Shown here: one piece after another, positions 1,547 through 63,280 of the stretch | Position numbering within the stretch: position 1 is the stretch's first letter | Layout: each line of letters opens with the position of its first letter | Source of the DNA: Corynebacterium sp. CNCTC7651 | Lineage (GTDB): Bacteria > Actinomycetota > Actinomycetes > Mycobacteriales > Mycobacteriaceae | Reading direction: 5' to 3' | Length of the DNA stretch: 64,000 nt | NCBI RefSeq assembly: GCF_021496665.1 | Contig: NZ_CP071246.1 | Coordinates: forward strand, 620,001-684,000 | Translations under genes and position numbers: made by a program | The notes under the pieces: generated by a model | Told to the model about the DNA's origin: nothing | What the model saw: only the letters and a program-made list of their open reading frames with translations | The model's database searches: none

Positions 1547-2218
1547 ATGGCTTTAATCGATGCGCTGAGGCAGTATCTGGACGGCAACACGGTGACCGTC
1601 GATAAGCAGCATGCCCCGGTGGTCCCGCAACCCGCCCGCGGACGGCCGGCCGCCTATATCCCGCCGCTGCCCAGGCTCATGCGCGACGAGTTCGTGGCGG
1701 TTGATTTTGAGACCGCGAACCGCGTCGGCGGCGCCTCCGCGTGCCAAGTTGCCATGGTGAAGGTGCGCGGTGGGGACGTGGTTGACCAATTCTGCACGTA
1801 TCTGCGCCCGCCGGAGGAGCATATTGCGTTTGAGTTCAGCCACATCCACGGCATCTACCGGGGCGATGTGGAGGATGCGCCGAGTTGGTTCGACATTGCG
1901 GATGATGTTGTGGAGTTTGTGGGGGACGCGCCCGTGTACGCGCACAACGCCACGTTTGATGCGGCAGTGTGGCGCGGGCTGGACCGCTACTTTTTCACCG
2001 GCACCTTCCCGCGGGAGTTCTATTGCACCGCCAGGATGGCGCGCCGCCTGATGCCGGAGCTGCCGAATCACAAGCTGCCCACTGTCACCGCGTATTGCGC
2101 GCCGGGCTACCAGCTGGAGCATCACCGGGCGGATTCGGACGCGTTGGCGTGCGCGCACATTGTGGCCCAGTTTCAGCGCAGCCATGCACTGCACCCGCTG
2201 CTGCCGCCGGGGACGTAG
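1547..2218 (+). CDS. DEDDh-family 3'-5' exonuclease (DNA polymerase III epsilon-like)
   Basis: A protein of about 223 residues with an exonuclease fold. ExoI is VDFETAN (D and E metal ligands), ExoII is in VYAHNATFDAAV, and ExoIII is HRADSDALA with the H and final D. This is the DEDDh set of proofreading and RNase T-like exonucleases. About 45 residues precede the domain, with no BRCT or polymerase domain. A TAGCGT box ends 8 nt before the ATG, suggesting a leaderless transcript separate from ispE. The natural substrate (DNA or RNA ends) cannot be told from sequence. Confidence 0.85.
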   Translation: MALIDALRQYLDGNTVTVDKQHAPVVPQPARGRPAAYIPPLPRLMRDEFVAVDFETANRVGGASACQVAMVKVRGGDVVDQFCTYLRPPEEHIAFEFSHIHGIYRGDVEDAPSWFDIADDVVEFVGDAPVYAHNATFDAAVWRGLDRYFFTGTFPREFYCTARMARRLMPELPNHKLPTVTAYCAPGYQLEHHRADSDALACAHIVAQFQRSHALHPLLPPGT

Positions 2219-2232
2219 AATGAGCAGCCGCT

Positions 2233-4044
2233 ATGTCTAACCTGATCAACCTCGAAAATGTCTCCAAAACCTGGGGGCTGAAAACGCTCCTGGACGGCGT
2301 GTCCCTCGGTGTGCAGACGGGCGACCGCATCGGCATCGTCGGCGTCAACGGCGGTGGCAAGACCACGCTGTTGGAGGTGCTGACTGGCATTGAGCCGCCG
2401 GATGCCGGCCGCGTGTCCCACAACTCCTCCCTGCGCATGGCGGTGGTGACGCAGCGCTTCGAGCTTGAGGACACGTTGACGGTGGGCCAAGCCGTCGTCG
2501 AACCGTTGGGGCTGCAAACCTTTGAGTGGGCATCCAACGCCAAGGTGCGCGAGGTACTGCAGGGCACCGGCGTGGCCGCGCTGGGGCTAGATACGCCAGT
2601 TGGTCAGCTCTCCGGCGGCGAGCGCCGGCGCGTCAACCTTGCCGCCGCCCTGGTGCAGGACCTGGACCTGGTGGTGTTGGATGAGCCGACGAACCACCTG
2701 GACGTGGAGGGCGTGCAGTGGCTGGCGGACCATCTGCTGAGCCGCAAGCTTGCTGTCGTTGTGGTGACGCACGATCGCTGGTTCTTGGACACCGTGGCCA
2801 CCCTGACGTGGGAGGTGCACGACGGGCAGGTTGATGTGTACGAGGGCGGGTACAACGACTGGACTTTCGCCCGCGCGGAACGCGCCCGGCAGGCGGATGC
2901 GGTGGAGCAGCGCCGCCGCAACCTGGCCCGCAAGGAGCTGGCGTGGCTGCGCCGCGGCGCGCCGGCGCGCACCTCCAAGCCGCGCTACCGCATTGAAGCC
3001 GCCGAAGCGCTGATCGCAGACGTGCCCGCGCCGCGCGACTCTGTGGAGCTCATGGCGTTTTCGAAGCAGCGTCAGGGCCGTGTGGTCATTGAGCTGGAGG
3101 ATGCCCGCATTGACGCGCCGGACGGGCGCACGCTGGTGGACCATCTCACGTGGCGACTTGCCCCTGGCGAGCGCATTGGCCTGGTGGGCGTCAACGGTTC
3201 CGGCAAGACCACGCTGCTTCGCACGCTGGCGGGGGAGTACCCGCTGGCGGCAGGCAAGCGCATAGAGGGGCAGACCACGCGCATCGGCTGGCTGTGCCAG
3301 GAGCTCGACGACCTGGATCCCACACGCCGTGTGATCGATTCGATTGAGGATGTGGCCACGTATATCGAGCTGGGCAAAGGGCAGTTGTCTGCCTCCCAGC
3401 TGGCGGAGCGCCTCGGCTTCAGCCCGAAGCGCCAGCGTACCCCGGTGGGTGACCTCTCCGGTGGTGAGCGCCGCCGACTGCAGCTCACGCGCGTGCTTAT
3501 GAGCGAGCCGAATGTGCTGCTGCTCGACGAGCCGACGAATGATCTGGACATTGACACCCTCCAGGAGCTCGAAGACCTGCTGGACAACTGGCCGGGCACG
3601 CTCGTGGTCATTTCGCACGACCGCTACTTGATTGAGCGCATCGCCGACGTCACCTACGCGCTCTTCGGTGACGGGCAGCTGACCAACCTCCCGGGCGGCA
3701 TCCAGCAGTACCTTGACCGCCGCGCCGCTGCCCAGGGCCAAGCTGGGGTGCTGGATTTGGGCGACGGGGTGAAAGCGAACGTCGAAAAGCCCAGTAAGCC
3801 CAGCGCCCTTTCCTCCCAGGAGGAGCGGGAGCTGCGGAAACGGATGAACGCGCTGGAAAAGAAGATCGAGAAGGCCGATGCGCAGGCCGAGGCGCTGGAG
3901 GCGGAGATCGGGGAGTTGTCTGCCGCGGCGGCCCCGGATTTTGAGGCGATCGGCGCCAAGACGCGCGAGCTGTCCCAAGCGCGGGACGCGCGCGATGAAT
4001 TGGAGATGGAATGGCTTGAACTGGGGGAGCGGCTGGAAGGGTAG
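2233..4044 (+). CDS. ABC-F family ATPase (Uup/EttA-like)
   Basis: Two ABC ATPase domains are fused in one soluble chain with no membrane segments. The first has Walker A GVNGGGKTT and signature LSGGERRRVNL; the second has Walker A GVNGSGKTT and signature LSGGERRRLQL. Each has Walker B followed by DEPTN. A charged linker rich in Arg and Ala joins them, and a C-terminal coiled-coil-like tail (about the last 70 residues, Lys/Glu-rich) resembles Uup. Members of this family act on ribosomes or branched nucleic acids. The gene follows the exonuclease by 14 bases; a TAGAAT box at 2216-2221 may drive it. Confidence 0.88.
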   Translation: MSNLINLENVSKTWGLKTLLDGVSLGVQTGDRIGIVGVNGGGKTTLLEVLTGIEPPDAGRVSHNSSLRMAVVTQRFELEDTLTVGQAVVEPLGLQTFEWASNAKVREVLQGTGVAALGLDTPVGQLSGGERRRVNLAAALVQDLDLVVLDEPTNHLDVEGVQWLADHLLSRKLAVVVVTHDRWFLDTVATLTWEVHDGQVDVYEGGYNDWTFARAERARQADAVEQRRRNLARKELAWLRRGAPARTSKPRYRIEAAEALIADVPAPRDSVELMAFSKQRQGRVVIELEDARIDAPDGRTLVDHLTWRLAPGERIGLVGVNGSGKTTLLRTLAGEYPLAAGKRIEGQTTRIGWLCQELDDLDPTRRVIDSIEDVATYIELGKGQLSASQLAERLGFSPKRQRTPVGDLSGGERRRLQLTRVLMSEPNVLLLDEPTNDLDIDTLQELEDLLDNWPGTLVVISHDRYLIERIADVTYALFGDGQLTNLPGGIQQYLDRRAAAQGQAGVLDLGDGVKANVEKPSKPSALSSQEERELRKRMNALEKKIEKADAQAEALEAEIGELSAAAAPDFEAIGAKTRELSQARDARDELEMEWLELGERLEG

Positions 4045-4094
4045 CTCGGCGCGTCGCGCGTTACTGCTGTGATTTATGTGCCACAATCTGTCGC

Positions 4095-4742
4095 ATGTGG
4101 AATAACGGACATAATCGCGGAACGGCGGCGGGTATCGGAGCGCTCGCCCTCGCCGCCGCGCTCACCTTCGGCGCGACTCCGGCCTTCGCGCAGGACACCA
4201 GCTCCGACAGCACTCTGCCCAAGCCCATCGCATCCATCGAGCTCAACGGGCTTTCCTCCCGCGCAAACATCACCATCCCGCAACTGCCGGACATTGAAAT
4301 TCCGCGCGGCGTCATCGACGGCGCGAAAAAAGTGGGCATCACCCTGCCGGACCGCATTTCGCTGACCGGCCGCACCACGGAAGAGGTGCAGCGCAGCACA
4401 GAGCAGACGCTTCTCGACGAATCCGAGAAACAACTTGCCAAAGAGGGCCACCGCAAGGACCCGGAGGCGCAGGCAATTGCAGAGCAGTGGGCGCAGCAGG
4501 CCGCTCGGGGCGAAGCAAAGTTCACCGGTGATGTCGGCCGCGGGGTGACGGCGACGGACCGCGGAACGGGCAACATCTACAAGCTGGGCCCGCAGGACGC
4601 GCAGGAGCGTATCGGCTTCCTGACCAAGGAAGAGGTCATCGACGCCGTAGAGACGACGCCAACGAAGGAGCCGAAGCGCTTCGGCGTTGCCGTGGCCCGC
4701 GACGGGGACACGATCTACCTTGCCGAGTACTTCCTGAACTAG
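4095..4742 (+). CDS. secreted protein of unknown function
   Basis: 215 residues with a clear signal peptide: positive N-terminus, hydrophobic Ala/Leu run at about residues 12-28, and a likely cleavage after AFA before QDTSSD. The mature part has no motif I recognise. It is hydrophilic with Glu/Arg-rich helical stretches in its middle and ends with an LAEYFLN tail. A CACAAT-like box 7 nt before the ATG fits a leaderless transcript. It lies between the ABC-F gene and ppk2 on the same strand, with no obvious functional link. Confidence 0.8.
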   Translation: MWNNGHNRGTAAGIGALALAAALTFGATPAFAQDTSSDSTLPKPIASIELNGLSSRANITIPQLPDIEIPRGVIDGAKKVGITLPDRISLTGRTTEEVQRSTEQTLLDESEKQLAKEGHRKDPEAQAIAEQWAQQAARGEAKFTGDVGRGVTATDRGTGNIYKLGPQDAQERIGFLTKEEVIDAVETTPTKEPKRFGVAVARDGDTIYLAEYFLN

Positions 4743-4784
4743 CCGGCAAAATGCCCCCGCAACCGATCCGTTACGGTTGTGGGT

Positions 4785-6187: not shown

Positions 6188-6978
6188 TTGAGCCACGCAC
6201 CAAGCTTTTCGACGGCAGCTTCTTCCGCGCAATTCCCAATAACCTCATCCGCAATGGCTTTGAGGTCCTCATGGGCGTTGCCCATCGCCACCGCGTAGCC
6301 CGCGGCTTTGAGCATGCCGTAATCGTTCAGGTAATCACCGATCGCTGCCGTGTCGTTGTGGTGGATCGAAAGAGCGTCGGCAAGCGCGGTAAGCGCAGCA
6401 CCCTTATCCGCGTCCGGGTGCATGATGTCCAGCCAATGCTTCGAGCTCACAAGCGCGCGCAGCTCCGGAACCAGCGCTTCGACCCAGGGAAGCGCATCCG
6501 CTTCCGCGTCGGATTGCACGTAGAGGGCGATCTTGATGATGTTGTCCAGCGGGGCATCCGTCAGCGAGGTGAGCGTTTCGCGGGAATGGTAGTACTTGGC
6601 AATTTCCTCTTCGATCTCGGCGGGGAGATCGTCGCTGGTGAAACACACCTCGGGTGCGCAGATCACGGCGTAGGCGGTAAACGGCGCATCCTCGAGCGCG
6701 GCGACAAGGCGCGAGACGGGCGATTCCGCCATTGGGGTGGTGGAAACAACCTCGCCCTGGTGCCACACCACCGCGCCGTTTTCTGCGATAAACGTCTCCG
6801 GTGCGTCGCGGCTGAACATGTCCCGCAGCGTGGCCAGCTGGCGGCCGGAGGCGGGGGCGACGAGCATGCCGGCCCGGCGGGCATCCGCAAGCACCTGCCA
6901 AAACCTGTCCGGGATCTCACCCGCCGGGGTGAGCAACGTGCCATCCATGTCCAAAGCTACGAGTTTCGGTGAATTCAC
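6184..6978 (-). CDS. HAD-superfamily phosphatase, Cof type
   Basis: 264 residues. Motif I is LDMDGTLLT at the N-terminus with both catalytic Asp residues. The C-terminal IGDYLNDYGMLKAAGYAVAMGNA is motif IV plus the Cof signature, and a type IIB cap lies between. The family dephosphorylates sugar phosphates, flavin or pyridoxal phosphates; the substrate is not predictable here. It lies upstream of and overlaps the mpg gene, and is divergent from the enoyl-CoA hydratase-family gene 50 bases away. Confidence 0.88.
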   Translation of the reverse strand: MNSPKLVALDMDGTLLTPAGEIPDRFWQVLADARRAGMLVAPASGRQLATLRDMFSRDAPETFIAENGAVVWHQGEVVSTTPMAESPVSRLVAALEDAPFTAYAVICAPEVCFTSDDLPAEIEEEIAKYYHSRETLTSLTDAPLDNIIKIALYVQSDAEADALPWVEALVPELRALVSSKHWLDIMHPDADKGAALTALADALSIHHNDTAAIGDYLNDYGMLKAAGYAVAMGNAHEDLKAIADEVIGNCAEEAAVEKLGAWLK

Positions 6979-10053: not shown

Positions 10054-11505
10054 GTGACCGAGACCACCAACCCCCGCGATGACTGGAACCGCAAGCTTGA
10101 GCTTGCGCAGGAGATGCTGCCGCTGATCAGCCGCCTGCACCGCGAGCACAACGCGGTGACCTCGATCTACGGCCGCCTCTTGATCGGTGTGACGGACATC
10201 GACATCATTAAGGCGCACCGCTACGCACGCCGCATCGAGGAGAAGGAGCTGCCTCTGGATGAGACGCTGCCGATCCTCAAGGAGCTCGTCGAGATGGATC
10301 TGGGCACCGCTTCCATCGACCTCGGCCGTCTCGCCCGCGAGTACCGCAAGTCCGAGGGCCAGGACCTGCGCGCGTTCTTGGAGCAGGAGCTTGCCGACGT
10401 CGTGGGCACCTCTTCCGAGCTCGAGGCTCGCGACGTTGTGCTGTACGGCTTCGGCCGCATCGGCCGCCTGCTAGCTCGCATCCTCATCGCCCGCGAGGCA
10501 ACCTACGGTGGCGTGCGCCTGCGCGCTGTTGTGGTGCGGAAGAAGGGCGACGAGGACATTGTGAAGCGCGCGTCCCTCCTGCGCCGCGACTCCGTCCACG
10601 GCGCCTTCAACGGCACTATCACCGTTGACCGTGACAACGACATCATTTGGGCCAACGGCACCCCGATCCAGATGATCTACGCCAACAACCCGTCCGAGAT
10701 CGACTACACCCAGTACGGCATCGACAACGCCATCGTGGTGGACAACACCGGCGCATGGCGCGACCGCGAAGGCCTGTCCCGCCACCTCGAGGCCAAGGGC
10801 GTGGACCGTGTGCTGCTCACCGCCCCGGGCAAGGGCGACATCCCGAACATTGTCTACGGCATCAACCAGGACATGATCGGCGACAACCGCGTCCTCTCCG
10901 CAGCCTCCTGCACCACCAACGGCATCACCCCGGTGCTGAAGGTGATCAACGACCGTTACGGTGTCACCCACGGCCACGTGGAGACCGTCCACTCCTACAC
11001 CAACGACCAGAACCTGGCCGACAACTTCCACAAGGGCCCGCGCCGCGGCCGCGCTGCTGGCCTGAACATGGTGCTCACCGAGACCGGTGCCGCCAAGGCC
11101 GTGTCCAAGGCGCTGCCGGAATTCGCCGGCAAGCTCACCGGTAACGCCATCCGCGTGCCCACGCCGGATGTGTCCATGGCCGTGATCAACCTCGAGCTGG
11201 AGACCGAGGTTGAGAAGGAAGAGGTCAACAACTTCTTGCGCCGTGTGTCCACGGACTCCAACCTGCGCCAGCAGATCGACTACATCAACTCCCCGGAGGT
11301 TGTGTCAACCGACCTGCTCGGCTCCACCCACGCCGGTGTGGTCGACGGCCTGGCTACCATCGCCTCCGGCAAGCACCTGGTGCTGTACGTCTGGTACGAC
11401 AACGAGTACGGCTACTCCAACCAGGTCGTCCGCGTTGTGGAGGAGATCGCAGGCGTGCGCCCGAAGATCTACCCGGCCCGCAAGGAGCCGAGCGAGATCC
11501 AGTAG
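10054..11505 (+). CDS. gap: glyceraldehyde-3-phosphate dehydrogenase, long form
   Basis: 483 residues, about 140 longer than classical GAPDH, with an N-terminal helical extension before the Rossmann motif LYGFGRIGRLLAR. The catalytic Cys is about residue 286 in SAASCTTNGITP. Substrate-binding His and Arg residues are in the following segments (VHSYTND, GRAAGLN) and the C-terminal WYDNEYGYSNQ is intact. This matches the corynebacterial GapB-type enzyme, which works mainly in gluconeogenesis. GTG 10054 is chosen from its AAGGAG site; an open frame upstream to 9997 has no such signal. Confidence 0.93.
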   Translation: MTETTNPRDDWNRKLELAQEMLPLISRLHREHNAVTSIYGRLLIGVTDIDIIKAHRYARRIEEKELPLDETLPILKELVEMDLGTASIDLGRLAREYRKSEGQDLRAFLEQELADVVGTSSELEARDVVLYGFGRIGRLLARILIAREATYGGVRLRAVVVRKKGDEDIVKRASLLRRDSVHGAFNGTITVDRDNDIIWANGTPIQMIYANNPSEIDYTQYGIDNAIVVDNTGAWRDREGLSRHLEAKGVDRVLLTAPGKGDIPNIVYGINQDMIGDNRVLSAASCTTNGITPVLKVINDRYGVTHGHVETVHSYTNDQNLADNFHKGPRRGRAAGLNMVLTETGAAKAVSKALPEFAGKLTGNAIRVPTPDVSMAVINLELETEVEKEEVNNFLRRVSTDSNLRQQIDYINSPEVVSTDLLGSTHAGVVDGLATIASGKHLVLYVWYDNEYGYSNQVVRVVEEIAGVRPKIYPARKEPSEIQ

Positions 11506-11523: not shown

Positions 11524-12396
11524 ATGAAACGAGCCGCCATCATTGCCGCCTGCATAGTGGCGGCTCTTGTCATTGCGTTCGCCGGGTTTGTGGGATTCAT
11601 GCAGTGGGTTCACGCAGACAGCGTCACCGGGGACGATGGCGTTGCCGCAGGGTACGCCGACCACGTCGAAACGGGCGGTCCGATCGAGGCGGCGTACCAA
11701 GCTCCGGGGCCTCACGCTGTAACGGTGAACCTCGTGGATGATTACACCGTGGCGGTGCCTGAAGGTGACGGCCCTTGGCCAACGGTGGTGATGGTCAACG
11801 GCACCTCAACGCCGGCCAGTGACTATTTGCCGATCCTCGAGCACCTCGCGAGCTGGGGGTTCGTGGTGGTCGGCAATGAAGAACCGCATGCCGGTGACGC
11901 GCAGTCAACGCTGCGAACCATTGATGCGCTCTCCAGCCTCGAACCGCGGGCCGATGTGGAGCGAATTGCGCTCTACGGTCACTCCCAGGGCGGGGTAGGC
12001 GCGTTCAACGCCACCGCGGAAAACGGCGCTATCGATGCCGTGTATGTGGCCAGCCCGGCCTCGGCGAACATTGCAAAAAACAACGGCTGGCCCTACCGCG
12101 TCAACGAGGTAGAGGTGCCGGTGTTCATCATGGCGGGCGACGGGCGCCAAGACCGCATGATGGTCAGCCCGTGGAAGGGCGTGCAAGAAGCGTTCGACGC
12201 GACGACCGGCCCCGGCGTTCTCGCCCGGCGCCTCGGTGCGGATCACCCCGACGTGCTCGAGTTCGGCGACCCGTACGCCACCGCGTGGTTGCGCTGGCAG
12301 CTTCACGACGATTCCTCCGCCGCCCCGGCCTTCAGCGGCCCCGCGCCCGAGATCGCCGAGAACCCGAACTGGGCCGAGGTGGCAACCCGCGGCTAG
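11524..12396 (+). CDS. membrane-anchored alpha/beta hydrolase
   Basis: 290 residues. An N-terminal hydrophobic segment (about residues 4-27) acts as a signal anchor, so the domain is extracytoplasmic. The nucleophile elbow is GHSQGG, and a DH pair near residues 238-240 (ADHPDVL) may supply the acid or His. The layout resembles cutinase-like or dienelactone-hydrolase-like esterases. A TACCCT box lies 8 nt before the ATG, so a leaderless transcript separate from gap is plausible. Its last bases overlap the stop of the convergent glycosyltransferase. Substrate unknown. Confidence 0.8.
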   Translation: MKRAAIIAACIVAALVIAFAGFVGFMQWVHADSVTGDDGVAAGYADHVETGGPIEAAYQAPGPHAVTVNLVDDYTVAVPEGDGPWPTVVMVNGTSTPASDYLPILEHLASWGFVVVGNEEPHAGDAQSTLRTIDALSSLEPRADVERIALYGHSQGGVGAFNATAENGAIDAVYVASPASANIAKNNGWPYRVNEVEVPVFIMAGDGRQDRMMVSPWKGVQEAFDATTGPGVLARRLGADHPDVLEFGDPYATAWLRWQLHDDSSAAPAFSGPAPEIAENPNWAEVATRG

Positions 12397-13352
12397 CAGG
12401 ACCCGGTCTCACCGTCCGCGACGACGAAGGGGAGTCCGCCCGCGTTTGCCGCAACCACCGGCACGCCGGACGCGAAGGCCTCGAGCGCCGCGAACCCCAG
12501 CGTTTCCGTCGTTGACGGGAAGAGCAGCGCGTCGCCGGATGCGTAGGCCGCGTGCAGATCCGCACCCGACAGGTAGCCGGTGAACGTGATCCAGTCCCGG
12601 TCGAAGCGGCGCTGCAGCTCCTCATACATCGGACCTGCGCCGATCAGCGCGAGGCGCGCCTCCGGCACCCGCTCCCGCAGCGCCTCCAAGATGGGCAGCG
12701 TGCGCTCGACTGACTTCTCGGCAGAAATGCGGCCCACAAAGATCACCAGCGGCGCATCGGGGTGCCCGCCGGTGAGGCGTGCGCGCATCTCGTCGGATCG
12801 CGCGTCCGGGGTGAAGCTCACCGTGTCCACGGCCTTCGGCCACAGCTCGACGTTCTCGATGCCGTACTGCGCGGCTTTTTCCATCATTGGGCCGGACGTG
12901 ACCAGGTTGTACTCGCACGTGCCGTGGAAGGTGCGCAGGCCCCATTCGGAGATCGGCTTCACCCACGGAATGCCCAGCTTAAGGCAGTACTCCGGCACAT
13001 CGGTGTGGAAAGACCCCACGATAGGCAGGCCCTGCCGCTGCGCAATGAGCGTGGACCAGCCGGCCGTCCAGATCGGGTTCACGGCGTGCACCACATCCGG
13101 CTCGAACTGCGCGAGGCGGCGCGGCAAACGTGGCCCCAGCAGGCCGAACTTGATCTCGGGGTAGACGGGCCACAGGCTTAACGACGGCAGCTTCACCACC
13201 TCAAAGCCCGCATACTCCTTCGGGGCGTCACCGGTGGCGAAGATGAGCACCTCGTGGCCCATCTCCGCCAGTTGCTCCAGGTGGCGGGTGGTGCGGGTGA
13301 CTACGCCGTCGATCTTGGGGAGGAAGACTTCGGTGAGAACCGCGATGCGCAC
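12393..13352 (-). CDS. SQD2/SqdX-like family 4 glycosyltransferase, C-terminally short
   Basis: A GT-B glycosyltransferase starting RIAVLTEVFLPKIDGV. It has the donor-binding half FVGRISAEKS, the ASGDALLFPSTTETLGFAALEA box and SGVPVVAANAGG. The wording around LWPKAVDTVSFTP resembles the sulfoquinovosyltransferase that makes sulfolipid SQDG; alpha-mannosyltransferases are the alternative. It ends abruptly at DGETGSC, about 50-60 residues short of the family length, where the convergent hydrolase gene ends. GTG 13352 overlaps the TAG of the upstream SQD1-like gene by one base, so the two form an operon. Whether the shortened protein folds is uncertain. Confidence 0.8.
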   Translation of the reverse strand: MRIAVLTEVFLPKIDGVVTRTTRHLEQLAEMGHEVLIFATGDAPKEYAGFEVVKLPSLSLWPVYPEIKFGLLGPRLPRRLAQFEPDVVHAVNPIWTAGWSTLIAQRQGLPIVGSFHTDVPEYCLKLGIPWVKPISEWGLRTFHGTCEYNLVTSGPMMEKAAQYGIENVELWPKAVDTVSFTPDARSDEMRARLTGGHPDAPLVIFVGRISAEKSVERTLPILEALRERVPEARLALIGAGPMYEELQRRFDRDWITFTGYLSGADLHAAYASGDALLFPSTTETLGFAALEAFASGVPVVAANAGGLPFVVADGETGSC

Positions 13353-14819: not shown

Positions 14820-14871
14820 GGTAGGCCCCTCGCGCAAAATCCGGCAGCGGACCGGCTTTAGGGCTTGTGCT

Positions 14872-15582
14872 TTACGACGCCTGCTGACCCGCAAATTCCT
14901 CCACCATCTCCACTGCTTGGTCAAGTGCGTCGTGAATATGCGGCGCGTCAATGGAGGGAATGCCCATAGAGCGGAATTGCGGCCCCATGTTCTTGAACGG
15001 GGTGATCACGCCGGGGCTGGGGTCCATGTGCGCTGTCGCGATCTGCTTGAACAGCTGGTCCAGCCGCTTGCCCACGATTTTCTGCTGCCTCCGGTCGTAC
15101 CCCCGCGGCGCGAGCGGATTCTCCGGGCCGTACACGTGGCTAACCAGTCGGCTCACCCGCGGGTCGTACACAAAGACAGCCACCGGGAACCAATTAGGCA
15201 AGCGCAGGTTCGGGCGGAACTCAATGATGAAGGCGAGGAACAGCTTCGTTTCACCCGAGTCATTCGCAATGGCGTAGGTAGCCGTAGACAAGTCCTCTGC
15301 TTCAAACGGTGCGCCTCGACGCAGCGTGAACGCGGGATCTGTCGGGTCGTTGATCTCGATGGTGTGGTCGTCTTTCCCCTGCAGGATGGCCTGCAGCTGT
15401 TCGATCACGCGTTCCGCGTGCTCGTCCCCGAACCATTTCGGCGCAGATGGCGTGCCCGGTTTCGCAAGTGCCACATCCACCTCTTGGGTGGTGATGTCGT
15501 GGACGATGATGGCCACCTTCTCGCCGTCATCCGCAATGGAGTCGGCGGTGCGGTAGAACAATTCGTACGCAATAAAAGGCAT
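14872..15582 (-). CDS. conserved-looking protein of unknown function
   Basis: 236 residues, soluble, with no signal peptide or membrane segment. It shows alternating beta-like stretches (VAIIVHDITT, LFLAFIIEFRPN, FPVAVFVYDPRV) and a helical C-terminus. I recognise no domain. I prefer ATG 15582, preceded by GGGGGA; another ATG at 15606 is also possible. The stop TAA lies within one of the CGTCGnnAAGC motifs. It is divergent from the ABC exporter pair. Confidence 0.65.
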   Translation of the reverse strand: MPFIAYELFYRTADSIADDGEKVAIIVHDITTQEVDVALAKPGTPSAPKWFGDEHAERVIEQLQAILQGKDDHTIEINDPTDPAFTLRRGAPFEAEDLSTATYAIANDSGETKLFLAFIIEFRPNLRLPNWFPVAVFVYDPRVSRLVSHVYGPENPLAPRGYDRRQQKIVGKRLDQLFKQIATAHMDPSPGVITPFKNMGPQFRSMGIPSIDAPHIHDALDQAVEMVEEFAGQQAS

Positions 15583-35503: not shown

Positions 35504-35550
35504 AATGGTCTCCTTCTTGGTTTCGAAGGGCCGCTTGCTTTACGACGAAA

Positions 35551-37029: not shown

Positions 37030-37088
37030 GGCGGCCTTTCGGTTTCGAAGGAACGTCGGAAAGCATAATGCCCTGGTAAAACGGAGGA

Positions 37089-43903: not shown

Positions 43904-45138
43904 TTAGGCAGTGTCGGCCGAGACGTCCTTGAGCCGCGACGCGCCGACAACTCCGGCGAAACCGATCGCCGCGAGGAAGAGTAGCGCAGCCTGCGGGCCG
44001 AGCATGGAAACCGCCGACGAAACCGCGCCCACCACCAGCAGCACCACGCCCATCACGGTGTTGGACGCGCCGGTAATCACGGTGCGGCGATCCCCCTCCG
44101 CCATATCAACCAGGTACGTCTTGCGGCTCACCCGCACAGCGGTGTGTGCGAGGTTGACAAGGAAGAACCCGAGCGGGAACACCCACGCGTTGACCCCTTC
44201 CGGTGCCAGGCGCGCGCTGAGCACTAGAAGCACGAGCACCACGGAGGCCACGCCCGCAGCCCAGGCCATCGTGCTTTTCGACGATCGATCCGACCACAGC
44301 CCCGAAATCCGCCCACCCAAAAGCGATGCGCCGCCCGAGGCGATGATGAATGCGCCGAGGCCGGTCAGGTCTGCCCCCTCCGCGCTGGCCAGCACCACGA
44401 TGAACGGCGTGGACAGCCCGTGACCAGCATCAGGGAACGCACAAGCAGGAAGCGCTGCAGGTCGCTGTCGCTTTTGACCAGTTCCCATGTGTCGCGCAGG
44501 CTGCTGCCCCCGCCCTTGGTGCCGTCGGTCTCCGCCTCAGGTTCTTTGATGCCTCGGAATACGAGGAGGGAGGCGAAGGCCCACGTCGAGGCGCCCGCCG
44601 CGAGGAGGGCGGCGGCAGCCCACTGGGGCAGCTCGTTGGGCAGAAACGTCAGGACAAGACCGATTACCAGGGTGAACGCTCCCGCGAGAGCCGTAGCCCG
44701 GCCGGTGATCTCCCCGCGGCGGCCCTTGGAAATCGTGCGGCCCTGGACGTCCTTGCCGGCGATGGAGCATAGAGCGCGAAAGACGGCCAAGACCGCGAGC
44801 AGGAAAAGGACGAGGAGGCCGAGCAAGGTGCCGTCGAAAAGCAGGGCACTCAGGGCGATACCTGCGGCGGCCGCGGCCTGCCCCCAGGAGCCGATGAGCC
44901 ACACGCGTTTGCGGGAGCGCTGCGATGTCACCCACGGGGTGAGCGCGGCCTGGGGGAGCATGGAGCCGGATTCGCGGATGGGGACGAGGAAGGAGGTGAA
45001 GATTGCGGGCACGCCTGCGGCGGTGAACAGCCACGGCAGCACGGTTTTCGGGGCGACGATCTGGCCGCCGATGTTCTGCAGGCCGTTCGACCAGATGAAC
45101 CGGCGCGCGTTGCGGTCTTCGTTGGGCAGCTTCGACAC
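43904..45138 (-). pseudogene. MFS permease with a frameshift
   Basis: Two frames together make about 411 residues with some ten to twelve hydrophobic segments. The first frame ends its sensible sequence at LVRSLMLVTG and the next continues LSTPFIVVLASAEG, with the junction at the CCC run 44417-44419 (plus strand), consistent with loss of one base. Restoring it gives a continuous carrier. Substrate unknown. Either a real mutation or a homopolymer sequencing error. The gene is divergent from the multicopper oxidase. Confidence 0.8.
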
Positions 45139-47819: not shown

Positions 47820-50800
47820 CCACACGCACACCGCAGGACATCCCGCCGCTTGCCGGGGTACTCACCGCCGCGCTGACGGATCCGAAGCTCAAGGGTGTCC
47901 GCGCCCGTGTTGGGGACGAGGCGCTGCACATCACCGCCATCGATCAGGCACGCGCCTGGGTGGCGGGCGCCATTGCACGCGAGACACCGGTCCTTGTGGT
48001 CACGCCCACCAGCCACGAGGCGGAGGATCTTGCCGGCGAGTTGTGCGCCATCGCTGGCGAGGACAACGTCGGCCACTACCCGGCGATTGAGACCCTGCCG
48101 CACGAGCGCCTTTCCCCGGCCGCGGACGTGGTGGGCCGCCGCGCCAAGGTTGCGTGGGAGATGCCGCGCGTCATCGTCGCGCCGGCCCGCGCCGTGTGCC
48201 AGCCTGCGCTGCCCCCAGTTGAGCCGATCACGGTTGCGTTAGACCAGGAGCAGGACTTCGAGGCGCTGATCCGCCGCATCGAGCGCTTCGCTTACGAGCA
48301 TGTGGACATGGTGGCCAAGCGCGGCGAATTTGCCACCCGCGGCATTATCGACGTCTTTCCCACCACCGCCTCCAACCCGGTGCGCATTGAATTCTGGGGC
48401 GACGAGGTCACCGACATCCGCAGCTTCGCGGTGGCGGACCAGCGCACGATCGAAGAGGTCGGCACCGTCGAGCTCTTCCCCGCGAGGCAATTGCTTATCG
48501 ACGATTCCGTTGCCCGCCGCGCCGACGAACTCGCCCGCCAATTCCCCTCCAACCCCACGCTTGTCAGTCTGCTGACCAGGATCAGCGAATCCACCCATGC
48601 GGACGGCGAAGAGGCCCTGCTTCCTGCGCTGACCAACGAGGCGTGGAGTGTGCTGCCGGAGCTCATGCCGTCCGGGTCCGTGGTGCTGGTGACCGCACCG
48701 GAGAAGGTGCGCGCCCGCATTGAGGACCTGCAGTCCACCGACCGCGAATTCCTCGAGGCCGGTTGGGAGGCTGCGGCAATGGGCGCGGAGGGGCCAGTGG
48801 CAGTGGAGGGCCTCGACGTTTCCGCGTCCTCCTACCGTTCCTACGAGTCCCTGCAGGTCTCCGCCCGCAAGGCCGGCAACGCCTGGTGGACGTACGCGCC
48901 ACCGGGCATGTTCGTGGCGGACGATACGCAGACGCTGCCGTTGGAATTCGAATCCGCGCCCGCACCGAAGGGCGAGCCGAAGGCGATCGAGCAGCTCTAC
49001 GCCACCCTGAAGCTGCACGTGCAGGACAACCACGGCAAGGTCGCCTTCATCGCCCCGGCGAAGGGCACCATTGACCGCACTGCGGAGCGCCTGCGCGAGC
49101 ACGGGATCTCTGCCCGCGTTGCCACCCCGGGCCTTGAGCCCGTGGAGGGCGCAGTCACCCTGTACCAGGCGCTATCCCACAGCGGTGTTGTGTTCGGCGG
49201 CCCGGGCCTGGTGGTGGTGACCGAGACCGATGTCACCGGCAACCGCGTCGGCGACATCGCCGGAGCCAAGCGCCGCGCCCCGCGCCGCCGCAACCGCGTC
49301 GACCCGCTGGCGCTCACGCCGGGGGATTACGTGGTGCATGAAACGCACGGCATCGGCAAGTTTGTGAAGATGGCGGAGCGCACCATCGCAGATTCCCGCC
49401 GCGAATACATTGTGCTGGAGTACCAGCCCGCCAAGCGCGGGCAGCCGGGCGACCAGCTGTGGGTGCCCATGGAGTCGCTGGACCTGCTGTCGAAGTATTC
49501 GGGTGGGGAGCAGCCGTCGTTAAGCAAAATGGGCGGAAGCGACTGGAAGAACACCAAGCGCAAGGCGCGTGCGGCGGTGCGGGAGATCGCCGGCGAGCTC
49601 GTGGAGCTGTACGCGAAGCGCCAAGCGGCGCCGGGGCACGCATTCGCCCCGGATACGCCGTGGCAGCACGAGATGGAGGATGCGTTCCCGTTTGTGGAGA
49701 CGGAGGACCAGCTCGCCGCCATCGAGGCCGTGAAGGAAGACATGGAGAAGCCGGTGCCGATGGACCGGGTGATCGTGGGCGACGTCGGCTTCGGCAAGAC
49801 CGAGGTGGCGGTGCGCGCCGCGTTCAAGGCGGTGCAGGACGGCATGCAAGTCGCGGTGCTCGTACCGACGACGCTCTTGGCCCAGCAGCACTACGCCACA
49901 TTCTCCGAGCGCATGGACGGTTTCGGCGTCACGGTGCGCGAACTGTCCCGTTTTACTTCTGCGACGGAGTCGAAGGAGATCATCAAGGGGCTGGCGGACG
50001 GCTCCGTCGACGTGGTGATTGGCACCCACCGCCTCTTGGCAACTGGCGTGCAGTGGAAGAACCTCGGCCTGATTGTGGTGGATGAGGAGCAGCGCTTCGG
50101 CGTGGAGCACAAGGAGCACATCAAGGCGCTGAAGAGCCACGTGGACGTGCTGACCATGACCGCGACGCCGATCCCGCGCACCCTCGAGATGAGCTTGACG
50201 GGCATCCGCGAGATGACCTCCATCACCACCCCACCGGAGGACCGCCACCCCGTGCTCACCTACGTGGGCCCCCTACGAGGACAAGCAGGTGGCTGCCGCG
50301 ATCCGCCGCGAGCTGTTGCGCGACGGCCAGGTCTTCTACATCCACAACAAGGTCTCCGACATTGAAAAAACCGCGCGTCAGCTGCGAGAATTGGTGCCGG
50401 AGGCGCGCGTGGTGGTGGCGCACGGCCAGATGAGCGAGCAGCTGCTGGAGCAGACGGTGCAGGGTTTCTGGGACCGCGAGTACGACGTGCTGGTGTGCAC
50501 CACCATCGTGGAAACCGGCCTGGATATCGCTAACGCGAACACCTTAATCGTGGAAAACGCGCAGAACATGGGCCTGAGCCAGCTGCACCAGCTGCGCGGC
50601 CGTGTGGGCCGCTCCCGCGAGCGCGCATACGCCTACTTCTTGTACCCGAAGGACAAGACGCTCACGGAGACGAGCTATGACCGCCTAGCCACCATCGCCC
50701 AGAACAACGACCTCGGCGCCGGTATTGCCGTTGCGCAGAAGGATCTTGAGATGCGCGGCGCCGGCAACGTGCTGGGCGCGGAGCAGTCCGGCCACATCGC

Positions 50801-51431
50801 CGGTGTCGGTTTCGACATGTACGTGCGCCTTGTCGGCGAGGCGGTGGAGGCCTACAAGGCTTTGATGCAGGGCACGCTTGTCGACGCTACCGATCAAGCC
50901 CCCAAGGAAATCCGCATCGACCTGCCCGTTGACGCGCACATTCCGGAGGGCTTCATCAGCGCGGAGCGGCTGCGCCTCGAGGTGTACCGCAAGCTTGCGG
51001 AGGCCCGCAGCGAAGATGACCTGCAGAAGGTGGCCGACGAGATGGTGGACCGCTTCGGCCCCTTGCCGACGGAGGTGGAGCACCTCATGGCTGTGGCGCG
51101 CCTGCGCCACCAGGCACGTGCGGTGGGGGTTGCGGATATTCTGAGCCAGGGCACGCGCATTAAGTTCCACCCGGTGGAGCTGCCGGACTCCAAGCAGGTG
51201 CGTTTGAAGCGCCTGTACCCGGGCGCGAACTTCCGTGCCGCGGCGAAGACGCTGCAGGTCCCGATGCCGCGCGAGTCCAAAGCCATCAACAGCCCGAACC
51301 TGCGCGATACGGAGTTGGTGCAGTGGGTGGCCGATTTCCTCACCGACATGTTCGACGCCCCCGCCGTGGCCGTCGGTGGTTCGACGGCCGTCGGCGAGGG
51401 CGGCGGGAAGGTGTTCAGCTTCAGTGAGTAG
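47816..51431 (+). pseudogene. mfd: transcription-repair coupling factor, frameshifted
   Basis: Mfd displaces stalled RNA polymerase and recruits UvrA. All domains can be read: the UvrB-homology module, the CarD-like RNA-polymerase-interaction domain (TPGDYVVHETHGIGKF), helicase Walker A GDVGFGKTEV, the VVDEEQRFG box, and the TRG/C-terminal part. The frame breaks at a run of five C at 50269-50273. With four C the text reads [20 protein letters not shown] and the product would be about 1204 residues, the normal length. So either a one-base insertion inactivates the gene or the run is a sequencing error. Confidence 0.9.
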
Positions 51432-53397: not shown

Positions 53398-53593
53398 TCA
53401 GAGTTGTTAGCAAGGTAAGTAGGGTAATAATTGGCTAAGAATTTCGATCACGGAAAGTGGAAGATTCGGATATGTCAAAGTTGGAGCCACTCTACGTGAT
53501 CTAACCGATTCGCCTGGCGGGCCTTTCGGTGGCATATTGCAGGGCGCGGGGTGGGGTGCCGTATGCTGCATGGAGTTTCGTCGATAAGCAAAG

Positions 53594-53667: not shown

Positions 53668-55216
53668 CCGATTCCAGCGGCCCGTGAGAGCGGTCGCCGC
53701 GCAAGCGCTTGAGCACGTTCTCGGCGGAGATGAGGCACATGGGAACGCCGACACCCGGCGCCGTCGTTGCGCCGGCGTAGTACAGGTTCTTCAACTTCTT
53801 TGAGCGGTTCGAGCCGCGTAGGAATGCGGATTGGCGCAGGGTGTGGGCGGGACCGATCGAGCCACCGGACCAGGCGTGATAGCGTTCGGCGAAGTCGGCG
53901 GGGCCGAGGGTGCGTCGCACCACCACTCGCTCAGCCAGGTCCTCGATGCCGCACCACTGGCCGATCTGCGCCACCGCCGCGTCCGCAATGCGCTCGACGG
54001 CTTCGGAACCGTCGCCGCGATACATGGTGCCGTGCCCGAGTGATTCGGCGGCTGCGACCGGGACCAGCACGAACAGGTTCTCGCAGCCGTCCGGGGCGGT
54101 CGACGGGTCGGTCGCGGAGGGCTTAGACACGTAGATGGAGCGCGAGGAGCCGAGCGGACGGGCGGCTGCCGGCGCGTTGAACACGGCGTCGAAATCGTCC
54201 TCCCAGTCCTCACTGAACAGCAGATTGTGGTGCTCGAGCTGCGGCAGCTCGCCGCGCACGCCGAGCATCACCAACACCGTGCCCAGGCCGGGATCGCGGG
54301 GGGCGAAGTAGGCCTCATCGTAGGTGCGCTTCGATTTCGGCAGCAGGCGCGTCTCGGTGAAGGGGAGGTCGGCGCAGGAGACGACGATGTCGGCCGCGAG
54401 TTCCTCGCCGTTGGTCAGGCGCACGCCGGTTGCGCGCGGGCCGGCGTAGGTGATCGCGGCAACGTCGGCGCCGCAGCGGATCTGCGCGCCGTTCGCCACC
54501 GCGAGCCGGTAGAGCGCATCCGTCACAGCGGCGAACCCGCCCTGCGGATACTGCACGCCCTGGGTGAGGTCCGTGTGGCTCATCAGGTGGTACAGCGATG
54601 GCGTGCGCGACGGCCGCGACGACAGGAACACCGCAGGATACGTCAGCATCTGCCGCAGCCGCGTATCCGCGAACCGCGCCTCCACGAAGCGATCCAAGGG
54701 CACCGCGAGGAACTTCGCCAGCTCACGGTATCGGGGGAGCATCCGCTTATCGACGAAAGATTTCACGCTGTCAAAGTTCGTATACAAGAACCGGTCGACG
54801 GCGATGTCGTAGGTCTGTGCGGCTGAATCGAGGTAGTCGGCCAATGCTGCTCCGGCGCCCGGCTCGATCGATTCGAACAGTGCCTGGGCTTCTGCGCGGC
54901 CGGAGGGAACGTCGATAGGCGCCCGGTGCTCCGGGAAGAGCCGGTATGCGGGGAAGAGGTCGACGAGGTCCAGCTCCGCCGCGGTGGACGTGCCCATGAG
55001 CTCGAAGAAGTGGTCGAACGCGTCTGGCATGAGGTACCAGGACGGGCCGGTGTCGAAGCGGAAGCCCTCGATGGTTTCTTCCCCGGCGCGGCCCCCGATG
55101 GTGTCTAGGCGCTCGAGCACCGTGACCCGGTAGCCCTCGCGGCTTAACAGTCCCGCGGTGGCAAGGCCCGCAACACCGGCGCCGATGATGATGGCGTGCT
55201 GTGTCTGCTGTGTCAT
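53627..55216 (-). CDS. crtI: phytoene desaturase
   Basis: 529 residues as read. FAD-binding IIIGAGVAGLATAGLLSREGYRVTVLER starts the protein, then GGRAG and FDTGPSWYLMPDAFDHFF, ending with the C-terminal dinucleotide motif GATTAPGVGVPMCLISAENVLKRL. It introduces double bonds into phytoene. ATG 55216 overlaps the crtB stop (ATGA). The last about 14 residues (ending PPVGLEPTLGGF) are translated from the antisense strand of the tRNA gene, so the true protein has an accidental tail. Confidence 0.92.
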   Translation of the reverse strand: MTQQTQHAIIIGAGVAGLATAGLLSREGYRVTVLERLDTIGGRAGEETIEGFRFDTGPSWYLMPDAFDHFFELMGTSTAAELDLVDLFPAYRLFPEHRAPIDVPSGRAEAQALFESIEPGAGAALADYLDSAAQTYDIAVDRFLYTNFDSVKSFVDKRMLPRYRELAKFLAVPLDRFVEARFADTRLRQMLTYPAVFLSSRPSRTPSLYHLMSHTDLTQGVQYPQGGFAAVTDALYRLAVANGAQIRCGADVAAITYAGPRATGVRLTNGEELAADIVVSCADLPFTETRLLPKSKRTYDEAYFAPRDPGLGTVLVMLGVRGELPQLEHHNLLFSEDWEDDFDAVFNAPAAARPLGSSRSIYVSKPSATDPSTAPDGCENLFVLVPVAAAESLGHGTMYRGDGSEAVERIADAAVAQIGQWCGIEDLAERVVVRRTLGPADFAERYHAWSGGSIGPAHTLRQSAFLRGSNRSKKLKNLYYAGATTAPGVGVPMCLISAENVLKRLRGDRSHGPLESVPPVGLEPTLGGF

Positions 55217-56938: not shown

Positions 56939-57497
56939 CTACATGCCCCCGCGCATTTCCTTGTAACTTTCCAACGCTTGCCTGCGAGATTCTTTCACGT
57001 CCACCATCGGTTCTGGGTAGAGCGGGGTGAACGCCTCGGGCACCCAGCGGGTGGTGTACGTTCCCTCCGGGTCGAACTTCTCCTGCTGCAGTAATGGGTT
57101 GAAGATGGGGTGATGTCGGGGGCGGGGAGGGGCTGTGGGGGAACGTCGGCAAGCAAGGCCTGCACCGCTTTGGAGAAGGGCGTGAACACGCGAAACGGGG
57201 TGCCGGAGCCGGTGTTCACCGGTTCCACGTCACCCGCGCACCGAGCTCGGCGGCGATTCGCGGCACCACCTCCCGAGGGTCACCTTTCGCGCGGATCAGC
57301 GGGAGCTTCGTGCTTAACGACGCCTCACTGCGCGCCCTCCACCACCGAGCAGCCGCCCCGAGCGGCCGGCCGACGGTTTCATCGATCGTGAGGCCCACAA
57401 CAGGACCTCGCTCGGCTGCCCAGGCAAGCGCGGCGTTGTCCGTCAGGCGGCGATCGTCGCGGAACCAGACCAGAGTGGGTGTTTGCGAGTGCGGCAT
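56939..57497 (-). pseudogene. phr: DNA photolyase remnant with two internal deletions
   Basis: From ATG 57497 the N-terminus reads LVWFRDDRRLTDNAAL, the antenna-domain start of CPD photolyases, to ARVTW. It then jumps, in another frame, to EPVNTGSGTPFRVFTPFSKAVQALL. It jumps again to PIFNPLLQQEKFDPEGTYTTRWVPE and the C-terminal PLYPEPMVDVKESRRQALESY, stop at 56939. Roughly 300 of the about 460 residues, including the FAD-binding core, are missing. The start overlaps the SUFU gene stop (TAATG), so it was the second gene of that operon. Confidence 0.9.
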
Positions 57498-57813
57498 TAA
57501 CGGTCACCCACCACGTGGATCTCCACCGGCACGGTCCGAAGGCGGTACACGCCGGGGGTGGTGTCGAAGGTGGCTAGGAGTTCGTCGATAAGCGGGCGCG
57601 TCGCGGGGACCTGCAGGTGTGTGGCGCCGGCCTCGAACGGCGCGTCCGGGCCGAGCAGCAGCCACGTCTCGTCGCGCACCAGGGCGAAGGAGCGGCCGCG
57701 CCCCAGACGGTGCCGAGCCGCGCGCAGAAGCGCCTGCGCCGCGCGAGTGTCCATGTCGATGCGGCCCTTGCTGTCCACCGCCAGCAGCTTGGCGTGGGCC
57801 GCGCTTATCGACG
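57144..57813. repeat. cluster of four CGTCGnnAAGC motifs
   Basis: Copies at 57144 (forward), 57312 (reverse), 57583 (forward) and 57803 (reverse) lie in 670 bases covering the photolyase remnant and the 3' half of the SUFU gene. This is the densest part of a motif family scattered through the window. Confidence 0.8.
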
Positions 57814-59419: not shown

Positions 59420-59441
59420 CAAGCGAACGTCGGCAAGCAAA

Positions 59442-59468: not shown

Positions 59469-59483
59469 ATTTCGTGTCCGCTT

Positions 59484-60597: not shown

Positions 60598-60685
60598 GGG
60601 GTCTCAAACCTTCCCTCATACGTCAAACGAGCCCGCCCAAAGTGGGAGGGCCAGGCATCGTCGGGTTTTCCTTCAGCGAAGCTTA

Positions 60686-61144: not shown

Positions 61145-61267
61145 GGCGTTGGAACCTCCGGGGACGGTGGGGTTGATCTGACAACGATGGTACTAAGATG
61201 GCGCGGTGATCCTGCATCACCCCCACGTCAACTAAGTCAACCCCGAAGACAGGAAGTTGGAGATCGA

Positions 61268-62164: not shown

Positions 62165-62463
62165 TCGCCCAACTGAACACCGCAGTGATCAACGCCAGCG
62201 GGTTCGTTCTTGCGCAGCAGCCGGCGCAGACGCCGGTGGGCCCGGACTTCGGCAAAGCCTCGCCGGTCGGGTTGCTGCTCATCGTCGCGCTGGCCGTTGT
62301 GGTGCTCTCCCTCGGCTATGCCTTCCACCGCCGCTATTCCCGCTTCCGCCGCCGCCAGGTGTTTGCGGAAATGCACGGCATCGACCCGTTCGATGAGGAG
62401 GCCGTGACGCGTGCAATGGCAGAGGCTGGCGTGCTGGACCGTCGCAAGAAGGGGTTCCTCTAG
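62161..62463 (+). CDS. small membrane protein, mca-associated
   Basis: 100 residues. Overlaps the mca stop (ATGA). One membrane segment at about 38-55 (VGLLLIVALAVVVLSLGYAF), then a basic stretch RRYSRFRRRQVF and a cytoplasmic tail with GIDPFDEEAV. A protein of this type follows mca in mycobacteria too (Rv1083 position). Function unknown. Confidence 0.8.
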   Translation: MIAQLNTAVINASGFVLAQQPAQTPVGPDFGKASPVGLLLIVALAVVVLSLGYAFHRRYSRFRRRQVFAEMHGIDPFDEEAVTRAMAEAGVLDRRKKGFL

Positions 62464-62489
62464 GCGGTCGCGCCAGTAATATTGGGGGC

Positions 62490-63260
62490 GTGGCTGTGCT
62501 TGAGACTCTCCTGTACCCGCTCTATGAGGCGCGGCTGAAACGCGAACTGCGCGGTAAGCCTCGGCCACGCCACATCGCGGTGATGGCGGATGGCAACCGT
62601 CGCTGGGCGCGGGAGTCCGGCTTTACCGATATTTCTCATGGCCACCGCGCGGGCGCCGCGAAGATCGGCGAGTTGGTGCGCTGGTCCGCAGAGATGGATG
62701 TGGATGTAGTCACCATCTACCTCCTGTCCACCGAGAACTTGAAGCGCACATCTGAGGAGGTGGAGCTCCTCTTCGCCATCATCTCGGATGTGATCGATGA
62801 CTTGGCTGCGGAGCACTATTCCTGCCGCGTGCGATTGGTCGGCCACCTCAACCTGCTCCCGCCGGAGGTTGCGCAGCGGATGCAGGCTTCTGCCGATGCC
62901 ACGACGGGCAAGGCAGGCCTGACCGTCAACATCGCCGTGGGCTACGGCGGCCGTCAGGAAATCGTGGATGCCGTGCGCGCGCTGATTGAGCGCGAGGCCG
63001 ACGCGGGCACGCCCGCCGCAGGCCTGGCGGACCGCGTCACCGTGGAATCCATCGGCGAGCACCTCTACACCTCCGGCCAGCCGGACCCGGACCTGGTGAT
63101 CCGCACCTCCGGCGAACAGCGCCTCTCCGGGTTCTTGATCTGGCAAGCCGCCTACTCCGAGATCTGGTTCACCGACACGTACTGGCCGGCCTTCCGCAAG
63201 ATCGACTTCCTGCGCGCGCTGCGCGACTACTCGCAGCGCAACCGTCGCTTTGGCAAGTAG
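62490..63260 (+). CDS. uppS: Z-isoprenyl diphosphate synthase (UppS family)
   Basis: 256 residues. The family hallmark HIAVMADGNRRWA comes at about 29-41, then GHRAGAAKIGELVRW, and PDPDLVIRTSGEQRLSGFLIWQAAYSE near the C-terminus. Its position after mca and before coaA matches Rv1086, which makes short-chain Z-farnesyl diphosphate, rather than the decaprenyl synthase located elsewhere in mycobacteria. TAATAT lies 7 nt before GTG 62490, supporting a leaderless start. Confidence 0.92.
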   Translation: MAVLETLLYPLYEARLKRELRGKPRPRHIAVMADGNRRWARESGFTDISHGHRAGAAKIGELVRWSAEMDVDVVTIYLLSTENLKRTSEEVELLFAIISDVIDDLAAEHYSCRVRLVGHLNLLPPEVAQRMQASADATTGKAGLTVNIAVGYGGRQEIVDAVRALIEREADAGTPAAGLADRVTVESIGEHLYTSGQPDPDLVIRTSGEQRLSGFLIWQAAYSEIWFTDTYWPAFRKIDFLRALRDYSQRNRRFGK

Positions 63261-63280
63261 GGGCTTTTCGCTTTACGACG

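Follow-up and report, generated by a model that had tools for sequence, protein, structure and literature searches.

In the present study, we analyzed a 64-kb stretch (C1:620001-684000) of the genome of Corynebacterium sp. CNCTC7651 (G000), hereafter the window, across which an 11-base motif, CGTCGNNAAGC, is repeated on both strands and within as well as between genes. The evidence presented below points to a probable DNA uptake sequence that exists in dialects in the genus. An original prediction had reported that the motif was over-represented, listed 30 copies and offered three possible roles, namely DNA uptake, Chi-like recombination control and chromosome organization. Our search found 40 exact copies, 18 on the forward and 22 on the reverse strand (Table 1), compared with a mean of 1.18 and a maximum of 4 in 100 dinucleotide shuffles. 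The over-representation was therefore real and larger than stated; all of the 30 listed coordinates were exact copies, but the list was incomplete by 10.

Abundance and Arrangement of the Motif in the Genome

Across the complete genome, a single contig of 2,453,109 bases, CGTCGNNAAGC occurred 723 times on the forward and 695 times on the reverse strand, giving 1,418 copies, or about one per 1.7 kb. The reversed pattern, used as a control, occurred 70 times (40 + 30). These results confirmed the excess genome-wide and agreed with the predicted lack of strand bias. Finer analyses were performed on a 464-kb sample of the same genome, which consisted of the window and 20 stretches of 20 kb and held 263 copies. 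On the assumption that the origin lies close to base 1 and the terminus at about 1.2 Mb, the two GC-skew halves gave 133 versus 130 copies; replication polarity was thus absent, and a strand bias toward the terminus of the KOPS (FtsK-orienting polar sequences) or architecture-imparting type was not found. The gaps between copies had a coefficient of variation of 0.87, and 8% of them were shorter than 200 bases compared with 12% expected, indicating that very short gaps were somewhat rarer than random, while the counts per 20 kb were slightly over-dispersed relative to a Poisson distribution (variance/mean 1.31).

Single-base variants were rare at most core positions of the motif in this sample, and the 27 one-base core variants totaled 298, compared with 311 for the reversed controls. 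A clear excess was observed for CGTCGNNACGC (72 versus 20 for the control, about 3.5-fold), which we regard as a tolerated or secondary spelling, and a slight excess over the controls was observed for the CGCCG, CGGCG and CGTGG forms.

Table 1. Positions of the 40 exact copies of the motif in the window.
Copy	Position	Strand
CGTCGGCAAGC	955..965	-
CGTCGATAAGC	1597..1607	+
CGTCGAAAAGC	3780..3790	+
CGTCGAGAAGC	4409..4419	-
CGTCGAAAAGC	6204..6214	-
CGTCGGCAAGC	6375..6385	+
CGTCGGCAAGC	10389..10399	-
CGTCGTGAAGC	12300..12310	-
CGTCGTTAAGC	13176..13186	-
CGTCGTAAAGC	14869..14879	-
CGTCGATAAGC	18351..18361	-
CGTCGCCAAGC	18465..18475	+
CGTCGTCAAGC	21086..21096	+
CGTCGAAAAGC	21926..21936	-
CGTCGAAAAGC	23860..23870	+
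CGTCGAAAAGC	24671..24681	-
CGTCGTCAAGC	27709..27719	+
CGTCGTCAAGC	27865..27875	+
CGTCGGCAAGC	31005..31015	-
CGTCGATAAGC	31401..31411	+
CGTCGGCAAGC	32147..32157	-
CGTCGACAAGC	32393..32403	+
CGTCGTAAAGC	35537..35547	-
CGTCGATAAGC	36585..36595	-
CGTCGGAAAGC	37054..37064	+
CGTCGGCAAGC	38817..38827	+
CGTCGGCAAGC	39767..39777	-
CGTCGAAAAGC	44273..44283	-
CGTCGAAAAGC	44832..44842	+
CGTCGATAAGC	48493..48503	-
CGTCGTTAAGC	49515..49525	+
CGTCGACAAGC	50876..50886	-
CGTCGATAAGC	53579..53589	+
CGTCGATAAGC	54745..54755	-
CGTCGGCAAGC	57144..57154	+
CGTCGTTAAGC	57312..57322	-
CGTCGATAAGC	57583..57593	+
CGTCGATAAGC	57803..57813	-
CGTCGGCAAGC	59428..59438	+
CGTCGTAAAGC	63270..63280	-

The Excess Is Independent of Codon Usage

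Genes in the 464-kb sample were called with a simple codon model, which left 12% of it as non-coding. Among the 263 copies, 224 lay wholly and 5 partly in genes, and 34 were intergenic, which is about the non-coding share; copies between genes, noted in the original prediction, were thus not especially frequent. The claim that all reading frames were used was correct in that six frames were occupied, but the use was uneven: of the 224 genic copies, a single antisense frame, which reads ..G CTT NNC GAC G.., held 132, a single sense frame held 44, and the other four together held 48.

This concentration in one antisense frame could be expected if the motif were a by-product of codon use or of a common protein motif, Leu-x-Asp, and codon usage in one frame was the objection that the original prediction had raised against itself. 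The objection failed when synonymous codons were shuffled within each gene: the genic copies dropped from 224 to a mean of 19.4 (maximum 31 in 200 shuffles), and those in the dominant antisense frame dropped from 132 to 8.0. In addition, leucine was encoded by CTT in 132 of the 174 ..G-Leu-NNC-GAC-G.. contexts, although CTT is an uncommon codon (1,204 of all 12,469 leucine codons), and the intergenic copies stood at their expected share. The codon-use explanation was thus refuted by the shuffling, and we consider it extremely improbable. Taken together, the shuffle and the CTT excess indicated that the DNA word itself was favored, in the frame best tolerated by the protein. A reading-frame bias of one orientation has also been reported for the uptake sequences of Pasteurellaceae and Neisseriae (PMC2346458).

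Two Core Spellings in the Genus Corynebacterium

The distribution of the motif was determined in 161 genomes drawn evenly across the genus, with count cut-offs that we set ourselves. In 104 genomes, CGTCGNNAAGC reached 345 or more copies, the highest count being 1,891; 4 genomes had 280-301 copies and 43 had at most 134, while the reversed controls ranged from 22 to 106. In the 104 motif-rich genomes, 46-53% of the copies were on the forward strand. The check on conservation across Corynebacterium, proposed earlier, thus found the motif in about two thirds of the genomes. When 40-kb samples of species with low counts were scanned for enriched words, several yielded a second spelling, CATCGNNAAGC, which was dominant in the remaining 10 of the 161 genomes (625-1,337 copies). 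The two spellings are referred to below as the CG and CA forms. Synonymous shuffling gave the same outcome in other species as in G000, with 41 copies of the CA form observed versus 3.1 in G142 and 47 copies observed versus 4.2 in a second CG species, G088, i.e., an 11-13-fold excess. In a family sample of 151 genomes from 31 genera, CRTCGNNAAGC was strongly enriched in Corynebacterium only, in 7 of its 11 genomes; across the 30 other genera of that sample it reached at most about 2.7 times the control, and none was enriched.

A tree was built from 59 tad-region loci (helicase, TadA, TopA, MarP and Nth, some genes being absent from some loci; support values were not printed). Its deepest branches were the no-motif species G146, G029, G134, G009 and G147. 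The CG form occupied most other branches, and the CA form formed one clade in which CG recurred (G010 with G035, and G004); if the tree holds, the spelling therefore changed at least twice. The three CG genomes within this clade retained 125-159 CA copies, compared with 20-100 in most CG genomes, which fits a past CA state. One species within the CA clade, G013, carried neither form, and several other no-motif species lay inside the CG part of the tree.

The flanking bases also differed between species. Position -1 was T at 95% of 56 sites in G088, and position -2 was G at 74-100% of sites in G004, G006, G142, G110, G052, G035 and a pooled CG set, compared with A or G in G000, where position +5 was A at about half of the sites. 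The upstream G pattern partly followed a three-base period that reflects codon positions. These flanks appear to add further dialects to the core ones, of which there are at least two.

A third core dialect was not found among the no-motif species, of which small samples were taken and part of the words tested. Other strong words were listed in the remaining no-motif species (20-40-kb samples), but those of G032 lay nearly all within one 1-kb repeat, and the tested words of G146, G038, G132, G061 and G053 reached only 1.7-2.9 times the synonymous shuffle; they were rejected as dialects. In the early-branching G012 and G076 (L061, L062, L130, L065, L066), with 280 and 301 motif copies, CGTCGNNAAGA was in excess (10 versus 0.7 and 9 versus 0.6 expected) and is perhaps an older or weaker spelling. 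In the GC-rich no-motif species G146 (L057, L058, L124), CTGCTNNNCGCC was scattered, with 22 copies in genes versus 7.9 after synonymous shuffling, a weak signal that perhaps reflects protein composition alone.

Sites Are Respelled in Place between Sister Species

The close relatives G004 and G006 used opposite spellings, with 921 CG and 125 CA copies in the former and 97 CG and 1,021 CA copies in the latter. We aligned 91 kb of the two genomes at 81.5% identity, in which 51 CG sites of G004 were aligned without and 4 with gaps. The other eight core bases were kept in G006 at 39 of the 51 sites, compared with 74 of 320 control sites, defined as CGTCG not followed by NNAAGC (p 2.7e-13). At the 39 kept sites, the second base was A in 33 and G in 6, whereas it was A in 28 of the 74 kept controls (p 1.5e-6). 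Identity was 0.25 at the dialect base and 0.83-0.96 at the other core bases. In the commonest frame, the G-to-A exchange leaves the amino acid unchanged (GAC/GAT) and is hence easy, and any second-base change to A is not special in itself since controls also show it; what counts is the contrast with 33 of 39. The excess over control sites therefore indicated that the whole site was kept and respelled, despite the easy synonymous exchange.

The same comparison bears on whether a bias in mutation, repair or methylation maintains the motif, in the manner of HIP1 (highly iterated palindrome). HIP1 of cyanobacteria is a very abundant short motif, a palindrome of the GCGATCGC type. The present motif resembles it in being very abundant and mostly in genes, and the frequent CGTCG/CATCG exchange at controls would also suit such a bias. 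However, both the conservation of the eight bases and the switch were far more frequent at the sites than at the controls. The motif is, moreover, non-palindromic, as the sequence itself shows, its dialects convert in place, and the mobile DNA described below is nearly free of it. We consequently regard a HIP1-like origin as highly improbable.

Motif Content of Mobile DNA

The motif was depleted in the small sample of mobile DNA, which comprised two phages, two plasmids and one insertion sequence (IS) stretch and was nearly motif-free. The Corynebacterium phages phi673 and BFK20, 40,000 bases each, had 0 and 1 copies, a plasmid stretch of C. kefirresidentii (50 kb) had one CG and one CA copy, and a plasmid stretch of C. 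stationis (23 kb) had two CG and one CA. In the G000 genome, a 17.8-kb stretch with an IS cluster of about 10 kb had no copies, compared with about ten expected; it was chosen for examination because its piece had the lowest count of 23 pieces. By comparison, the chromosomal locus L131 of a Corynebacterium sp., whose TadA gene is 58% identical to that of G000, held 16 copies in 20 kb, and L163, a 7.2-kb contig of a C. urealyticum metagenome-assembled genome, held none. Reduced uptake sequence density has been described for Neisseria genomic islands (PMC7371117). A transposase-like cluster was located at L017:9300-20000 (C1:1929300-1940000); some of its genes were IS256/IS1249-like by BLAST and others were recognized by eye, two transposase-like genes shared their first 70 residues, and pieces of the cluster matched plasmid records of Corynebacterium, Cutibacterium and others.

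These data help to weigh two further roles. If the motif were Chi-like, steering a recombination nuclease and thereby protecting self DNA, it would be dense, species-specific and scarce in mobile DNA, just as observed here; but it had no replication orientation, and the rarity of single-base variants at most core positions also argues against this role, which we judge very unlikely. The binding site of a chromosome-organizing or nucleoid-associated protein whose specificity varies between species could likewise be spread widely over both strands, and the shortage of very short gaps would suit it, yet the counts were slightly over-dispersed. Such a site leaves unexplained both the near absence from phages, plasmids and the IS stretch and the joint switch of the same base between sister species, and 43 of the 161 congeners lack the motif. 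This role therefore seems unlikely.

Transformation Genes and Candidate Receptors

A tad locus lies upstream of topA in the G000 genome. It encodes TadA (PF00437), two T2SSF proteins and a Flp-like pilin (PF14029, DUF4244); another protein matched Tad (PF13400) just below the cut-off, and Ssd and TadE were named by position alone, with no Pfam match. comEA and comEC were present elsewhere in the genome, and G000 also had a dprA match. Across the genus, comEC was matched in 161 of 161 genomes, a TadA-family protein in 158 of 161 (over the cut-off in 155), comEA in all 60 examined (some matches being partial), and DprA and prepilin peptidase in all 18 examined. Since the gene set is found in no-motif species as well, it permits but does not prove an uptake function. 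In Micrococcus luteus, tad genes are required for transformation, and comEA and comEC are also present (PMC4322843).

None of the gene contents that we considered explained the presence of the motif. comEC was rejected as the cause because it was matched everywhere; the Tad ATPase was rejected as well, the tendency to lower scores in the deep no-motif lineages following phylogeny, and no consistent pattern of tad gene loss or truncation was seen in species lacking the motif. For the receptor, alignment columns of twelve proteins were compared with the dialect, without a significance test. Residue 105 of ComEA (Asp in 4 CG, Ala/Glu in 6 CA sequences) and three further ComEA columns separated the dialects perfectly in 10 sequences, but all four failed in 41, where no column was perfect and the best reached 1.86 of 2. 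In ComEC, nine candidate columns were perfect in the same 10 sequences. Residue 106 of TadB scored 1.94 of 2 and followed the three reversals, but its residues were mixed and topA columns were nearly as good. No tad or com protein stood out as a fast-evolving receptor among 94 G004/G006 orthologues.

Several structural observations accompanied this survey. TadB had 351-393 aa in five deep no-motif species (L123, L124, L229, L230, L250) compared with about 200-230 aa in almost all the rest of the 60 (cf. L111), so that a change in the tad locus can be placed close to the root of the clade that bears the motif. The ComEC match often lay in an open frame of 650-795 aa in species lacking the motif, whereas frames of 420-620 aa were common in those carrying it; there were exceptions, and phylogeny may be the cause of this difference; the ComEC of G000 (530 aa) matched the Competence domain only in Pfam. 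The Flp-like pilin at L111:11011-11256 matched DUF4244 (PF14029), suggesting that this family has a role as pilins. In G137 (L300), with 625 CA copies, the ComEA match was short, covering residues 3-59 of 215 in an open frame of 121 aa, and the TadC call had 48 aa, possibly because of broken genes or an assembly fault.

Discussion

Based on the results above, we propose, with a probability of roughly 0.78, that CGTCGNNAAGC serves Corynebacterium as a DNA uptake sequence and comes in dialects, and that it is unrelated to the uptake sequences of Neisseriaceae and Pasteurellaceae. Among the three roles originally offered, uptake is favored by the dialects, the in-place conversion, the scarcity in mobile DNA, the lack of replichore orientation and the comEA/comEC/Tad set, while the Chi-like and chromosome-organizing roles are disfavored. 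None of the nucleoid, Chi-like and HIP1-like explanations accounts for all three of the dialect conversion, the non-polarity and the scarcity in mobile DNA.

We infer an active machinery with a preference for the motif, a probable route through the Tad pilus, ComEA and ComEC, and a receptor that sets the dialect. A surface or periplasmic transformation receptor would bind DNA tagged in the dialect of its own species, the Tad pilus would pull the bound DNA in, and ComEA and ComEC would pass it into the cell, where recombination would follow. Preferred uptake and recombination of tagged DNA would let copies of either orientation accumulate at any place where the protein can accommodate them, and would overwrite copies that had been damaged. 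If the preference of the receptor shifted, the drive would convert existing sites in place and dialects would arise.

Several points weigh against an uptake function. Natural transformation of Corynebacterium was not reported in the open-access literature searched; nor did the searches (preprints and supplements excluded) turn up any report of an uptake sequence in Corynebacterium or actinobacteria or of the motif, and none of the papers containing the motif spellings was on the subject by title. Uptake sequences are expected to show a halo of one-mismatch copies from mutation. In G000, the one-mismatch count, proposed earlier as a check, gave no such excess (1,510 versus 1,573 for the control, exact copies subtracted), although mutation should yield some. 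A one-mismatch excess was seen in G088, G141 and G055, but no-motif species such as G132 and G061 showed one as well, which makes the reversed control a rough one in this respect. The CGTCG/CATCG exchange is common outside the motif, and identity at position -8 between G004 and G006 was 0.41, far under its neighbors, for a cause that was not found. The prepilin-peptidase match of G000 was below the family cut-off, and comEC, comEA and tad occurred equally in no-motif species, so that the presence of the machinery does not separate the groups. The scarcity figures for phages and plasmids may depend on the dialects of their hosts, and the IS-containing stretch was a selected extreme. Finally, no receptor was found among the twelve proteins screened by column against dialect, and TadF, Ssd, ComEA and ComEC evolved only moderately fast, in the 19th-24th percentile of the G004/G006 orthologues.

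Uptake sequences are known in two unrelated groups, Neisseriaceae and Pasteurellaceae. The Neisseriaceae DNA uptake sequence (DUS) has eight dialects, which follow phylogeny, share a conserved core and act as transformation barriers (PMC3630211), and DUS and uptake signal sequences (USS) are present hundreds to thousands of times in a genome (PMC2346458). The Corynebacterium word is likewise over-represented, with dialects following phylogeny, a conserved core and hundreds to about two thousand copies. In contrast to the Neisseriaceae DUS, quoted as GCCGTCTGAA (PMC6370729), it is unrelated in sequence, bipartite with a two-base gap and found in a Gram-positive host with a Tad/Flp pilus locus (the search did not extend to ComP or type IVa pili); its dialect reversal is nested inside a clade, and its receptor is only predicted. 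Haemophilus influenzae carries about 1,300 copies of AAGTGCGGT (PMC5217627), and the Corynebacterium motif shares with the Pasteurellaceae USS its copy number and the frame bias of one orientation but differs in sequence and in having few terminator-type inverted pairs (3 within 50 bases and 4 within 80 in the 464-kb sample).

Among actinobacteria, Micrococcus luteus likewise has comEA, comEC and tad genes (PMC4322843, PMC6370729); transformation has been shown there, while in Corynebacterium the genes and the dense genomic motif are known from sequence alone. PMC4322843 uses neither the term "uptake sequence" nor "specific sequence". Corynebacterium is mentioned five times, supplementary tables aside, in a 2017 survey of spaced motifs that was based on pentamer pairs, each time for CRISPR repeats (PMC5217627). 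By function, the motif would join the uptake sequences, and by sequence, host phylum and probable machinery it would form a separate variant.

With moderate confidence, we further suggest that the motif represents the first genus-wide Gram-positive code for self-DNA recognition, in which at least two core dialects and additional flanking dialects would be read by a Tad-based machine with a predicted receptor, and in which the spelling would have been switched and reverted, the sites retuned and barriers to gene exchange set between Corynebacterium species. If the uptake function is true, this would be a third, independent uptake code, located in Actinobacteria, and would show that a code of this kind can arise where a Tad pilus replaces the type IVa pilus. 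Many Corynebacterium species would then be predicted to be naturally transformable, or to have been so until recently. The motif thus offers a testable handle on DNA uptake in the genus, in which scarcity of the tag would mark foreign DNA, and the G004/G006 pair would serve as a natural experiment for studying the receptor and how a new dialect spreads.

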